Shown: positions 1,595 to 18,602 of the stretch, one piece after another
How positions within the stretch are numbered: the first letter of the stretch is position 1
Layout: every line of letters starts with the position of its first letter
Virus record (IMG/VR): IMGVR_UViG_3300023429_000011
Location: 1 to 20,595 of that record
Source: a virus
DNA: 20,595 nucleotides
Strand: one strand, 5' to 3'
The notes under the pieces: model-generated
Told to the model about the DNA's origin: nothing
Seen by the model: only the letters and a program-made list of their open reading frames with translations
Database searches by the model: none
Program-made: the position numbers and the translations under genes

Positions 1595-4546
1595 TTAGCT
1601 GAAGTTGTCGCCTATCAAGCGTCCGTAGTAAGTTGTGCCGCCATCTTGCGTGAGGAATCTTAGTAGGTCTGTCTCACCGTCAGCAGGGGAGGTAGGTGGT
1701 GTGCCTGCTGGCCACTCGACAGACGCAGGGTATGTGAAGGTCGCATCTCCGACAAAGCCTGTGGAGTATTGCCATACTGCATCCCCAGTATCCCCAATAA
1801 CATACATCTTTGTGCCATCAGGTTTGAAGAAGACGCCGGTTGGACCTGTTTCTTGAGCGGAAACACTGAAGTTCTGTAAGTAAGATGCTGAAGTTATATC
1901 CCAAGCTGTGCTTAGGTCATACTCATTAACATCATCTCCGCTAATCCCAATAACGTACATCTTTGTGCCATCGGGCTTGAAGAAGATGCCGGTTGGACCT
2001 GTTTCTTGAGCGGAAACACTGAAGTTCTGAAGGTAACTAGCTGAAGATACATCCCAAGCTGTGCTTAGGTCATACTCATTAACATCTCTTCCACTAGCCC
2101 CAAGAACATACATTTTTAGGCCATCGGATTTGAAGAAGACGCCGGTTGGATCTGTTTCTTGAGCGGAAACACTGAAGTTCTGTAAGTAAGATGCAGTAGA
2201 AACATCCCAAGCTGTACTTAGGTCGTACTCATTTACATCATCTCCACTGAACCCAATAACGTACATTTTTAGGCCATCGGGTTTGAAGAAGATACCGGAT
2301 GGAGCTGCTTCTTGAGCAGCAACACTGAAGTTCTGAAGGTAAGAAGCTGAATTTATATCCCAAGCTGTACTCAGATCATATTCGTTTACGTCGTCCCCAC
2401 TAGCCCCAATAATATACATTTTTGTGCCGTCAGGTTTGAAGAACATGCCTTGTGGAGATGTTTCTTGAGCAGCAACACTGAAGTACCCTTCAGTGGGAAA
2501 ATCAAAGCTAGCAGCGCTTACGTCCCAAGCTGTGCTTAGGGTGTAGGAAAAGACTGCGTCTCCGGCAGTCCCAAGAACATACATTTTTGTGCCATCGGGC
2601 TTGAAGAAGATACCTTGTGGATTTGTTTCTTGAGCGGCAACACTAAAGTTCTGAAGGTAACTAGCCGTAGTGATATCCCAAGCAGTGCTTAGGTCGTACT
2701 CATTAACATTGTCTGCAGTATTCCCAATAACGTACATCTTTAGGCCATCGGGCTTGAAGAAGATGCCTTGTGGATCTATTTCTTGAGCAGCAACGCTAAA
2801 GTTCTGTAAGTAAGACGCAGTGCTTATATCCCAAGCTGTGCTTAGGTCATACTCATTAACATCGTCTCCACTTAACCCAATAACGTACATCTTTGTGCCA
2901 TCAGGTTTGAAGAAGATACCTTGTGGAGTTGCTTCTTGAGCGGAAACACTGAAGTTTTGCAGGTAAGTTGCAGAAGTTATGTCCCAAGCTGTGCTTAGAT
3001 CATACTCATTTACGTCGTCTCCAGTATTCCCAATAACGTACATCTTTAGGCCATCGGGCTTGAAGAAGATACCTTGTGGAGTTGCTTCTTGAGCAGCAAC
3101 ACTGAAGTTTTGCAGGTAAGTTGCAGAAGAAACATCCCAAGCCGTGCTTAGGTCGTACTCATTGACATCGTCTCCAACATTCCCAAGAACATACATCTTT
3201 GTGCCATCGGGCTTGAAGAATATGTCTGTTGGACCTGTTTCTTGAGCAGCAACACTGAAGTACCCATAAGCAGGTGGCTCTGCATTAGCTAGGTCATAGC
3301 CGCCATCAATAAATTCACCATTGAGCTCAAGCGTAAATCCGAGGGTAGTACCCGTCGTAGGGGGGTTGCTAAACACAAACGTAGTTTCAGCCGTAGGGGT
3401 GTAGCTAAACACGTTCCCAGAAGTCAGGTCAAGAGTTGTGCCTGTGATCGTTCCCACCTTCTCAGCGGTAGCAATACCGTCAAGCTTTGTTTTATCACTT
3501 GTAGACAACAAACCAGCAGTCGTAGTAGTAGCTACAGGAACAGTTACGTTAGTGCCTGTTGACGAAGTAATTGTTCTAGTGTTGCCTGTTCCGGTAATTC
3601 CAAGGTTAGTAGCTACGTTAACCTGAGCGCCTGCAGCGATTCCGTCTAACTTGTTCTTGTCAGTTGAAGACAAGACCCCTGCGAGGGACGTTGTTGCTGC
3701 GTTAACCGTAGCGTTAGTGCCGTCAGAGCTATTTACAATAATAGTAGAGGCATTATGTGTTGTTGATAAGTTGGTAGTTACGTTGGGTGCGGTGTTAGTA
3801 ACTGTAATAGTTCCGTTAGTAGTGATCGGTGAGCCGGTAATGGAAATACCAGTGCCGCCAGAAGCGGCTACTGAAGTTACTGTACCGGACCCACTCGATT
3901 TAGCTTCCCAACGTTCGTTAGCATTGTCCCAAGCAAGAACTTGTCCTTCAGTAGGGTTGGGGACGTGTAAGTCGTGAAGTTCGCCAAGGTGAAAGCCAGT
4001 AATTGGTTTTACAAAGATAATTCCCGTAGTAGCGTGAGCACGAATAACAATAGCAACAGAAATGTTTTGATTAGGTGCTTCTGGCTTAACATAAGTAAGT
4101 TTACCAGCGGTGGTTGGAGAAGCATAAAGAATAGTGCCTTCTACCCAAGTCTCGCTAACAGCATCTCCTGTTGTATCTAACCTGTTAATTTCGCCAAAGG
4201 TAATCGCAAACCCTGATTCGTTTATCGCTAAGTCTCTCTCTGCAAGTCCAATAACAGCAAGCTCTTCGATTGTATTATTAGCGATAAACTTGTTTACTGT
4301 AATCTTGCCAGAAGCCTCAACAGCTCCTGTAGCGTAAACTAAGTCGCCCTTAACTAGAGCTACATCCGCCTGAATAGGGATTCTTGCTTCTTCTGTGTTA
4401 CCTAGTTGTAAAATATCACCAGCAGCATCTTTAGTAAAAATCTTTTTATCGGCAAGGTTGATAGCAACCTCACCAATATCTAAGTCCGAAGTCAGCGGAG
4501 TTTTACCTACAACACTAGACTTTTTTGGAATAATTTTAGTAGCCAT
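1595..4546 (-). CDS. Long tail fibre with ten propeller-like repeats
   Basis: This 983-residue protein is the largest in the window. Residues 1-50 (MATKIIPKKSSVVGKTPL, DIGEVAINLADKKIFTKD) form a fibre-attachment head, shared with the 309-residue fibre gene just upstream and resembling the N-terminal domain of Mtd-type tropism proteins. A Thr/Ser/Asn-rich shaft follows, with two copies of a motif like LSSTDKNKLDGIA. From about residue 430 there are ten repeats of about 51 residues with the core FFKPDGxKMYVxG and VNEYDLSTAWD, as in beta-propeller or NHL-like blades. The tail end (SPADGETDLLRFLTQDGG) is typical of fibres. It probably mediates surface binding. No reverse transcriptase or template repeat is present, so diversification by a retroelement is not supported. 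Confidence 0.85.
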   Translation of the reverse strand: MATKIIPKKSSVVGKTPLTSDLDIGEVAINLADKKIFTKDAAGDILQLGNTEEARIPIQADVALVKGDLVYATGAVEASGKITVNKFIANNTIEELAVIGLAERDLAINESGFAITFGEINRLDTTGDAVSETWVEGTILYASPTTAGKLTYVKPEAPNQNISVAIVIRAHATTGIIFVKPITGFHLGELHDLHVPNPTEGQVLAWDNANERWEAKSSGSGTVTSVAASGGTGISITGSPITTNGTITVTNTAPNVTTNLSTTHNASTIIVNSSDGTNATVNAATTSLAGVLSSTDKNKLDGIAAGAQVNVATNLGITGTGNTRTITSSTGTNVTVPVATTTTAGLLSTSDKTKLDGIATAEKVGTITGTTLDLTSGNVFSYTPTAETTFVFSNPPTTGTTLGFTLELNGEFIDGGYDLANAEPPAYGYFSVAAQETGPTDIFFKPDGTKMYVLGNVGDDVNEYDLSTAWDVSSATYLQNFSVAAQEATPQGIFFKPDGLKMYVIGNTGDDVNEYDLSTAWDITSATYLQNFSVSAQEATPQGIFFKPDGTKMYVIGLSGDDVNEYDLSTAWDISTASYLQNFSVAAQEIDPQGIFFKPDGLKMYVIGNTADNVNEYDLSTAWDITTASYLQNFSVAAQETNPQGIFFKPDGTKMYVLGTAGDAVFSYTLSTAWDVSAASFDFPTEGYFSVAAQETSPQGMFFKPDGTKMYIIGASGDDVNEYDLSTAWDINSASYLQNFSVAAQEAAPSGIFFKPDGLKMYVIGFSGDDVNEYDLSTAWDVSTASYLQNFSVSAQETDPTGVFFKSDGLKMYVLGASGRDVNEYDLSTAWDVSSASYLQNFSVSAQETGPTGIFFKPDGTKMYVIGISGDDVNEYDLSTAWDITSASYLQNFSVSAQETGPTGVFFKPDGTKMYVIGDTGDAVWQYSTGFVGDATFTYPASVEWPAGTPPTSPADGETDLLRFLTQDGGTTYYGRLIGDNFS
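1718..3259 (-). repeat. Tandem array of ten 153-bp repeats inside the fibre gene
   Basis: Repeat starts are recognised by the codons for FSV(A/S)AQE at 3259, 3106 and then every 153 bases. Between the fifth and sixth repeat the step is 12 bases longer, so repeats fall into two blocks of five whose first units start at 3259 and 2482, 777 bases apart. The fifth unit of each block departs from the others in the same place (GDAV plus an aromatic instead of GDDVNEYD). The DNA copies are very similar, which makes the array prone to recombination and to assembly collapse. Confidence 0.9.
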
Positions 4547-8866: not shown

Positions 8867-9142
8867 TTATTCTCCAATTCTTTTTAAAACAGATTCAATA
8901 GAAGCACGAATAGACAAGATGTTCTCATCAATACGGGCTAGCATAACAGCTTGAGCTTGAGAAGTCCTCTCAATTTCATTCAAACGGATTTCCTGCCTAG
9001 CGATCTCTCGTGTATTAGTACTAACAGCAGCGTCTAGAGCAGAAATGTACCAGACAAGAGCGACTGTCTGGAGAGTAATAGCAATAAGCGATGACATGGT
9101 GATGCTCTTAGATATACCCCAACTTGAGTTATTTTCACCCAT
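8867..9142 (-). CDS. Small membrane protein with C-terminal coiled coil (holin/spanin-like candidate)
   Basis: I place the start at ATG 9142 (MGENNSSWGISK) because AAGGAAAATAAAA lies just before it; a longer frame to 9244 would lie mostly inside the small terminase gene. The 91-residue product has one membrane segment, roughly residues 14-34 (ITMSSLIAITLQTVALVWYI). A heptad-like helical region follows (STNTREIARQEIRLNEIER, then RIDENILSIRASIESVLKRI). This single-span plus coiled-coil layout fits small phage membrane proteins near terminase genes, some of which are lysis proteins. A role in lysis is possible but unproven. It overlaps the upstream gene by 8 bases. Confidence 0.7.
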   Translation of the reverse strand: MGENNSSWGISKSITMSSLIAITLQTVALVWYISALDAAVSTNTREIARQEIRLNEIERTSQAQAVMLARIDENILSIRASIESVLKRIGE

Positions 9143-9569
9143 TTTTATTTTCCTTATTAGTAGATGAATCAGTAAGAACAATAGACACAGGGCGCTTCTC
9201 CGTAATCTCTTGCTCAAGTTTATCAGGGATCTTCTTATAGCCATACTGCATCAGGTTATTGATGAGTTGACCTTTAGTAGCAATTAACTGGGCATAAGCA
9301 CCAGAGCCAATGCGGATGTCACCGGAAGCTAAAGCATCATCAATAGCATGAAACTGGTTAACCATCTCGACAATAGGATCAAAGCCAAGTTCTTCAAGCT
9401 TCTTTACAGAGGCAAGAGAGTTAATGTTCTTAGAGCCTTTAGGACGACCACTGCCCTCTCTACTACCGCCATTCTTCATACCTTTTTTCTTGTTACAAGG
9501 GACAGTACCAGCGGGTTTGCCATCAAGGCGAGGTCTTCCAACAGGGCGTTTTGTGTTCATATCAACCAT
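9135..9569 (-). CDS. terS: Probable small terminase subunit
   Basis: The 144-residue protein has two AT-hook-like elements near its N-terminus (RPVGRPRLDGK, about residues 8-18, and GSGRPKGSKN, about residues 39-48). A helical region follows (ASVKKLEELGFDPIVEMVNQ, GAYAQLIATKGQLINNLMQY) and a charged tail. In many marine phages a protein of this build is annotated as the small terminase, which recognises viral DNA and regulates the large subunit. It starts at ATG 9569 behind AGAAAGGATCTTCTAGT; a second in-frame ATG lies three codons later. It is the first gene after the long non-coding region and heads the packaging module. The assignment is from position and composition; another DNA-binding protein is possible. 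Confidence 0.6.
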   Translation of the reverse strand: MVDMNTKRPVGRPRLDGKPAGTVPCNKKKGMKNGGSREGSGRPKGSKNINSLASVKKLEELGFDPIVEMVNQFHAIDDALASGDIRIGSGAYAQLIATKGQLINNLMQYGYKKIPDKLEQEITEKRPVSIVLTDSSTNKENKNG

Positions 9570-9720: not shown

Positions 9721-9763
9721 TTTATTATAAAAATAATAAAAATAATTTATGTATCTAAGATAC
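9721..9763 (-). terminator. Possible intrinsic terminator after the structured element
   Basis: On the coding strand the hairpin GTATC TTA GATAC (9763-9751) is followed by a T-rich tract (ATAAATTATTTTTATTATTTTT). The stem is short and AT-rich, so termination would be weak. It could define the 3' end of a transcript covering the tRNAs and the structured element. Part of the hairpin repeats the 3' strand of the closing helix next to it (AAGGTATCTT versus TAGGTATCTT), so alternative pairing is possible. Confidence 0.35.
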
Positions 9764-9938
9764 CTAGAAGATACCTTAATAACCCCCGTAAAGAACCGAA
9801 TAAACCTTCACAAAAGGCTTATCAAGTTCTTCCACAGGAGACTATGGGAGTGACATCTTCGGGGGTTATCTGTGACAAGTCACAAGTAAGAGTTCTCTTT
9901 CAGATGTCAGTAGAGAGTCTTATTCGGTATCTTCTAGG
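9763..9938 (-). ncRNA. Candidate structured RNA with nested hairpins and a pseudoknot
   Basis: No gene covers this stretch, but it holds far more base-pairing than expected. Helix A: 9763-9775 with 9926-9938, 13 perfect pairs. Helix B: 9779-9788 with 9860-9869, 10 perfect pairs. Helix C: 9798-9803 with 9920-9925, 6 pairs, stacking directly on A and crossing B, hence a pseudoknot. Local hairpins: 9871-9884 (UGUGAC UU GUCACA), 9805-9817 (CCUU/AAGG), 9832-9847 (CCAUAG/CUGUGG) and 9894-9898 with 9912-9916. The 9832-9847 stem has a G-U pair on the minus strand that would be a C-A mismatch on the plus strand, so the RNA should be minus-sense, like the genes. It does not match an RNA family I recognise. 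Confidence 0.6.
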
Positions 9939-9980
9939 CAGAGCTTAGACAGTAAGTTTATACTCGTTTGAGGAGAATTA

Positions 9981-10000
9981 TTCTTAAACGTCAGGTATCA
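9981..10000 (-). repeat. Dispersed repeat, copy A (intergenic)
   Basis: Coding-strand sequence TGATACCTGACGTTTAAGAA. It differs from copies B and D by one base in the A/T part. It lies between the tRNA-like element and the structured element, outside any gene. Confidence 0.7.
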
Positions 10001-10029: not shown

Positions 10030-10112
10030 TGGTATCAGTTGGGGAATTGAACCCCAAGGTTACAAGCTATGACGCCTGACTAACTATAGTAACCTGCTAA
10101 CCTGCCCTGACA
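10030..10112 (-). other. tRNA-like element without a readable anticodon arm
   Basis: This 83-base stretch starts one base after the encoded CCA of tRNA-Leu and itself ends in CCA. It has a perfect T-arm (TGGGG TTCAATT CCCCA) and acceptor-like ends (TGTCAG with CTGATA, six pairs including one G-U). The usual anticodon arm is missing. Instead a long hairpin is formed by AGGTTAC (10095-10089) with GTAACCT (10063-10057), then AGTTA (10085-10081) with TAGCT (10069-10065), around an 11-base loop. The only 5+7 arm I can build gives anticodon AUA with two wobble pairs and a degenerate D-arm. It may be a decayed tRNA, a divergent long-variable-arm tRNA or a tRNA mimic. Confidence 0.5.
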
Positions 10113-12314: not shown

Positions 12315-12337
12315 TTGTTCTTTAACGTCAGGTATCA
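12315..12337 (-). repeat. Dispersed repeat, copy B (end of the DUF1289 gene)
   Basis: Coding strand TGATACCTGACGTTAAAGAA followed by CAA. It includes the last codons and the TGA stop of the DUF1289 gene (frame D-T-stop). It is identical to copy D over 22 bases. A TTGATA hexamer at its start lies 18 bases before a TATATA box (12314-12309), so this copy could overlap a sigma-70-type promoter for the small genes that follow. Confidence 0.75.
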
Positions 12338-18284: not shown

Positions 18285-18602
18285 TTACTCCTCGTTGTTC
18301 TTTAACGTCAGGTATCCTTTTGTGTTACTTTTCTTACCGTTAAGTTTCCTGTCCTCTAGCTTTTCTAAGGTGTACATCATAAGCTCTGACAAGCTGCTCC
18401 CCTCACAGTGTGCCATTACAGTAACATACCATAGAACATCGCCTAGCTCATCAAGTAGATCTTTACGGGTTCCCACTTTAATAGCTTCTTTTACTTCGTG
18501 AACTTCTTCTAAAAGCCCCACGTGTAGTTCTTTAGAGTTTTTATGGTTGTCGTTAAAAAACTCTACGGCAAGTTTTGAGTAGACTTCATTTGTAAGTTTC
18601 AT
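18285..18602 (-). CDS. mazG: MazG-like nucleotide pyrophosphohydrolase
   Basis: The 105-residue protein has the all-alpha NTP-PPase signature: EE-x2-E at 32-36 (LLEEVHEVKEA) and DLLDELGDVLWY (48-59) with E52 and D55, which together bind Mg2+ and the nucleotide. MazG proteins hydrolyse (d)NTPs to monophosphates. Phage forms have been proposed to affect alarmone levels or to recycle host nucleotides, though the substrate cannot be read here. It is one MazG domain, as in most phage versions. The last 11 codons contain repeat copy D (frame G-Y-L-T-L-K-N). It starts immediately after the upstream stop. Confidence 0.9.
   Translation of the reverse strand: MKLTNEVYSKLAVEFFNDNHKNSKELHVGLLEEVHEVKEAIKVGTRKDLLDELGDVLWYVTVMAHCEGSSLSELMMYTLEKLEDRKLNGKKSNTKGYLTLKNNEE
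18295..18316 (-). repeat. Dispersed repeat, copy D (end of the mazG gene)
   Basis: Coding strand GATACCTGACGTTAAAGAAC followed by AA, inside the last codons of mazG. It matches copy B over all 22 bases. It stands just before the ribosome binding site of the next gene. Confidence 0.75.

Follow-up and report, generated by a model that had tools for sequence, protein, structure and literature searches.

The minus strand of the 20.6-kb virus record analysed here (the whole stretch, hereafter the window) encodes a conserved element that we regard, with near certainty, as a structured RNA. Judged from sequence comparison, it is very probably a structured 5′ leader of the packaging or late transcript, situated beside a phage promoter. 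The RNA occurs in marine phages belonging to a widespread aquatic group, where it is consistently flanked by a promoter-like motif and, on its opposite side, by the terminase genes. The features of the window copy are collected in Table 1.

Table 1. Features of the structured RNA and the neighbouring terminase genes in the window, listed in the direction of the minus strand.
Feature	Position	Strand	Basis or remark
Promoter-like motif TACCTGACGTTTAAGAATAA, 20 bases	9978..9997	-	RNA starts just downstream
P1 outer helix, 5′ strand UGUCUAAG	9944..9951	-	RNAduplex pairing with 9752-9759
P1 internal loop, CUC	9941-9943	-	same 3x1 loop recurs in homologues
P1 inner closing helix, 5′ strand, 15 bp	9926..9940	-	sequence turnover with pairing kept across homologues
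P2 hairpin, 5′ strand	9912..9918 (inner 5 bp 9912-9916)	-	two-sided changes at 4/5 pairs
P2 loop ACUGACAUCUGAA	9899..9911	-	near-invariant unpaired bases, alignments A6 and A7
Pseudoknot, 5′ strand GACAUC	9903..9908	-	6/6 pairs in 35/35 copies
P2 hairpin, 3′ strand	9894..9898	-	pair counts in homologues
P3, 5′ strand GAUAACCCCCG, CCCCCG invariant	9860..9870	-	26 distinct cores
Pseudoknot, 3′ strand GAUGUC, 2 bases past P3	9852..9857	-	pairing in homologues
Variable arm within P3, local hairpins	9789..9851	-	alignments A4 and A7
P3, 3′ strand CGGGGGUUAUU	9778..9788	-	pair counts in homologues
P1 inner closing helix, 3′ strand	9761..9775	-	pairs with 9926..9940
P1 outer helix, 3′ strand	9752..9759	-	pairs with 9944..9951
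TerS, probable terminase small subunit, 144 aa	9135..9569	-	first gene 3′ of RNA
TerL, terminase large subunit, 443 aa	7083..8414	-	similarity to DSS3_PM1/DSS3_VP1 TerL

The genes of the window lie on the minus strand, in the order tRNA-Arg, tRNA-Leu, structured RNA, probable TerS and TerL. The TerL protein shares 68% identity with the TerL of roseophages DSS3_PM1 and DSS3_VP1 (Naomviridae). The protein encoded at 9135-9569 has no Pfam match, and we take it to be TerS from its position ahead of TerL and its linkage to the RNA. In every copy, TerS is linked to the RNA and lies downstream of it on the same strand; genes may intervene between the two, and the first gene varies by phage. The TerL gene of three relatives (L027, L042 and L067) carries a group I intron near residue 277 (RF00028, E 2e-19 to 2e-23), and the split TerL halves in L001, L004, L033 and L027 match the uninterrupted TerL of the window at 99.6-100%. 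On the 3′ side of the terminase genes, positions 1595-4546 (minus strand) encode 983 aa in which beta-propeller-like segments recur, matching SGL and lactonase; the product is likely a tail protein or one that binds the receptor.

The RNA comprises an optional long closing helix (P1), a hairpin (P2), a helix (P3) and a 6-bp pseudoknot, in which the P2 loop pairs with a strand 2 bases past the 5′ strand of P3. The P2 loop consists of 13 nt in the pattern A-Y-Y-[6 nt]-U-G-R-A, with the conserved A-Y-Y and U-G-R-A flanking the pseudoknot strand, while P3 reads CCCCCG/CGGGGG in all 26 distinct cores. The arm enclosed by P3 is conserved in neither sequence nor length (alignments A4 and A7). The inner helix of P1 measures 14-19 bp in most copies and extends past a CUC/U internal loop in most of them, and P1 as a whole, internal loop included, spans 23-27 bp in most copies. 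By far the longest P1 of the family, with 48 continuous pairs (G-U allowed), was observed at L042:381-581. P1 is absent in three lineages (L071; L187/L191/L192; L193/L215/L216), and the core of the RNA is therefore P2, the pseudoknot and P3; in L193, L215 and L216 this core starts directly 3′ of the promoter-like motif.

Parts of this fold had been drawn in the original prediction, made from the window sequence. Its 10-bp helix (9779-9788/9860-9869) was confirmed, is conserved among homologues and corresponds to P3. The 13-bp closing helix (9763-9775/9926-9938) is also present, but is longer than claimed: it reaches 15 bp (9761-9775/9926-9940) and continues, beyond the CUC/U internal loop, in an 8-bp extension (9752-9759/9944-9951). 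A pseudoknot does exist, formed by GACAUC (9903-9908) with GAUGUC (9852-9857) and not by the proposed 6-bp crossing helix (9798-9803/9920-9925). That helix can be drawn in the window, in competition with the outer P2 pairs, but most homologues offer only short, chance-like pairing in its place.

Homologues were collected from TerS relatives in viral contigs, followed by pattern scans and then TerL/TerS scans. The TerS relatives carried conserved blocks at the same place as the window RNA, and the descriptor gave 39 distinct matches, all upstream of a probable TerS and on its strand; a relaxed pass added the variants L106, L124 and L128. When copies were listed by criteria blind to pairing (UGRAA, a C-run plus G, and later a CG-run), all six pseudoknot pairs formed in 35 of 35 distinct copies across nine sequence types, whose 5′ strands include GACAUC, GGUACU, GACAGU, UGCAUC and AACAUC. 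Two-sided changes occurred at five of the six pairs, and in the same listing the P2 loop lay 241-1411 nt from the TerS match.

Gapless blocks and a subset covariance model were used because MAFFT placed the 3′ strand of P3 wrongly in the window copy and in some others. On the gapless core blocks (A6), with the variable parts left out and cut to the proposed structure, 99.3% of cells were paired; two-sided changes numbered 74, compared with 18.7 in shuffles, and the covariation score was 0.472 against 0.164. Slid versions of the structure on these blocks all failed, at 33-55% paired. Compensatory changes in homologues, whose absence had been named beforehand as a ground for refutation, are present. 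P3 is invariant, so covariation cannot test its pairing, and the P1 counts are partly circular since P1 was picked as the longest helix. A covariance model trained without the window recovered the window copy at E 6e-5, a score lowered by its long insert, and identified one convincing copy per genome.

The minus strand of 9755-9945 folds at -76.1 kcal/mol (z -7.28), and none of 200 dinucleotide shuffles was as low; the plus strand of the same region gives z -5.82 against dinucleotide shuffles. The RNA is minus-sense, as had been proposed, and the promoter-like motif, the TerS orientation and the covariance model agree on this; the wobble pair originally put forward for it is a weak argument. 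No terminator-like site was found after the RNA, where a possible weak terminator had been suggested. The implied link to tRNAs did not hold up either: the promoter-like motif stands between the tRNAs and the RNA, most homologues have no adjacent tRNA, and the association is incidental. Between tRNA-Leu and the motif, positions 10031-10110 (minus strand) look like a degenerate tRNA, with a T-arm-like GGGGTTCAATTCCCC and partial acceptor pairing, in a place where neither ARAGORN nor Rfam calls a tRNA.

Directly upstream of the RNA, CCTGACGTTTAAGAATAA is found in most copies, and the promoter-like motif lies 30-60 nt ahead of P1 in most homologues. Searching 12 records for TACCTGACGTTWAAGAAYAA with at most 2 mismatches yielded 35 matches in 8 records, within each record only on the strand of the RNA, whereas the reversed control gave none. 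At the motif position, a second clade (L030, L042, L060, L063 and L071) carries AATACTGCCGACTAATGATAA or near variants. Two further motif copies in the window, at 12315-12334 and 18295-18314, are of the TTAAAGAACAA type; over the 230 nt past each motif, the fold z is -8.1 at the RNA and 1.08 and -1.0 at these copies. Relatives encode a T7-like RNA polymerase (PF00940) of about 720-770 aa, which is present in the RNA-positive records G004, G005, G006, G009 and G013. The 20-base motif is therefore probably the promoter of the phage's own T7-like polymerase, as its sequence pattern and the gene content suggest. A standard sigma-70 promoter was rejected, since the two sites detected were weak and shuffled sequence contained more.

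A second, weak T7-like polymerase match (E 1e-7 to 1e-10) was identified in DSS3_VP1 21242-25633 (‘minor head protein-like’), and frames of 1450-1510 aa in several relatives show the same weak match; this very large protein is perhaps a virion polymerase as in N4. Other motifs, of the TTTAAGAATAA type, occur at L240, L241 and L242 (G013:25600-26100, G008:28800-29250 and G007:19600-20000) and at L248-L289, and in many cases the motif is repeated in tandem. Downstream of them come a bulged hairpin of another conserved kind (GAGAC-AG..CU-GACA-GUCUC), a GC-rich hairpin and then a gene. The bulged-hairpin pattern matched 42 stretches, with at least 16 distinct sequences, and possibly represents a second structured leader or small RNA.

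In the TerL tree, RNA-positive and RNA-negative rows are interleaved, with 6 label changes (7 computed, L193 being relabelled by hand), which indicates several losses, or transfer. The RNA is missing in 17 rows of this tree (after the L193 correction), where the same terminase is kept, and a function strictly needed for packaging is unlikely because several lineages lack it. Members of the L147 group have the motif immediately ahead of TerS, with a P1-like remnant. The nearest isolated relatives, DSS3_VP1 and DSS3_PM1, lack both the RNA and the motif. The RNA-less L206, L226, L225 and L025 carry a short hairpin just past a similar motif; these hairpins are few and could have arisen by chance. 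No copy was found in an 84,980-species genome collection searched for exact matches to one pattern, and the nucleotide search of phage records returned, among the matches listed, tRNA matches.

As a leader, the RNA would be transcribed by the phage T7-like polymerase from the 20-base motif, with a start expected within a few bases of AAGAATAA and the fold lying within tens of bases downstream of the motif. Given a phage promoter at the motif, the growing transcript would adopt the fold at its 5′ end or close to it. There the compact fold may shield this end from the decay machinery of the host (RNase E, RppH, and RNase J where present); alternatively, RNase III may cut P1 and set a defined processed end. 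The predicted outcome is longer-lived terminase messages. Such 5′-end protection or processing of the packaging or late transcript is our tentative candidate for the main job, to which the sequence comparisons lead us to give slightly less than an even chance.

The sequences of the pseudoknot, P2 and P1 vary while pairing holds, so the shape of the fold appears to outweigh base-pairing to a target, and the invariance of P3 and of the loop bases points to a partner or to a precise tertiary fold. Simple hairpins suffice to protect 5′ ends, and protection alone therefore leaves the invariant P3, the loop bases and the pseudoknot unexplained; it also sits poorly with one RNA per genome, although more promoter-like motifs exist. 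A switch at the TerS ribosome site was rejected, since genes lie between the RNA and TerS, with up to 1.3 kb of other sequence, genes included, before TerS. It is doubtful, at a small probability, that the core is a phage counterpart of exonuclease-resistant RNA, a 5′-end pseudoknot physically blocking host decay, and the founding example of several cap-like folds dedicated to late messages. Another such fold would be the unrelated hairpin located after further promoter-like motifs of this type in the same phages.

Among the rival explanations, the one that survives best, which we still consider unlikely at about one step above doubtful, is a trans-acting ncRNA of ~180 nt, pseudoknotted, freed by RNase III within P1 and acting on a host or phage target. 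The phage polymerase would make it abundantly, and the site before TerS would merely supply a strong promoter. A P1 of 23-27 bp with its internal loop (48 bp in L042) is long enough for RNase III, but three lineages do without it; a specific partner is suggested by P3 and by the unpaired loop bases, which do not vary, and the patchy presence fits an accessory function, whereas the constant place and orientation relative to the terminase operon and the lack of a terminator-like site after the element speak against this rival.

A phage or host protein that binds the pseudoknot and controls the operon has a low probability. The precedent is T4 gp32, which binds a pseudoknot in its own leader (PMC3014915), and the marine RNA likewise places a pseudoknot, with conserved loop bases, in the 5′ leader of a phage message. 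The T4 gene 32 knot is short, with two stacked stems, is separated from the downstream start codon by 67 nt and acts via unstructured RNA reaching the ribosome site (PMC3014915). The marine RNA is instead a three-helix fold, usually clamped by P1, about 150-1350 nt from TerS and beside a probable phage-polymerase promoter; genes intervene before TerS in some phages, the first gene differs between phages, and no homology between the two RNAs is shown.

Linkage to TerS is strict in all copies, and the two complementary loop strands could pair between molecules, both of which would suit an RNA or site element that works with TerS and TerL in packaging. Phage phi29 uses a pRNA for packaging and has no TerS, and its pRNA resembles the present RNA in being tied to packaging genes and in having complementary loop strands. 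This explanation is nevertheless very unlikely: TerS is present here, Rfam gives no pRNA match, the RNA is missing from several relatives with the same terminase (the 17 TerL-tree rows), and the L147 group has the motif directly before TerS. A self-cleaving ribozyme is more improbable again. The pistol ribozyme has the same element order (a hairpin, the next helix, and a loop pairing to the strand just inside that helix), and the present RNA has conserved unpaired bases; however, the loop size (13 nt here) and the conserved bases differ, no cleavage motif was recognised, and no Rfam ribozyme matched at E up to 5. A DNA-level element (a cruciform, packaging or recombination site) would account for a long inverted repeat beside the terminase genes but is scarcely credible, because pseudoknot pairing kept through nine sequences needs a single strand, lengths between the paired parts vary freely and the promoter-like motif stands on one side only.

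The fold is defined well enough for direct testing. If the RNA serves in 5′-end protection or processing, it would reveal how phages that bring their own polymerase preserve their transcripts despite active host decay from that end; if it acts in trans, it would be a new phage effector RNA.

Phage T7 carries RNase III processing hairpins and late-message 5′ stem-loops, which are plain hairpins. The likeness lies in structured RNA within the messages of a phage with a T7-like polymerase, and P1 with its small internal loop is a candidate RNase III substrate like the T7 processing hairpins. In contrast, the marine RNA has a covarying pseudoknot, conserved loop bases, an invariant helix and a P1 that is absent in three lineages; set against the RNase III length of about 20 bp or more of dsRNA, P1 offers 23-48 bp with interruptions in most copies, and none in those lineages.

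At the Rfam 15 gathering score, the window and 8 homologous loci matched no family besides tRNAs, and at E up to 5 the window region gave tRNAs and two sub-threshold Plastid-ycf2 matches opposite them. The literature searched, with most subscription journals and all preprints outside it, contains no description of the RNA. GOLLD and ROOL (PMC12286853) share with the present RNA that they are large, structured and phage-encoded; they have no assigned function and often lie close to tRNAs. They are several times longer and have different folds (PMC12286853), their Rfam models do not match the window RNA, and of the tRNA-cluster setting only the two tRNAs near the window copy remain, most homologous loci having none. 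The original view of an RNA type distinct from GOLLD and ROOL is thus retained: among structured phage leaders, a broad and already known class, it constitutes a new RNA family that Rfam 15 does not contain.
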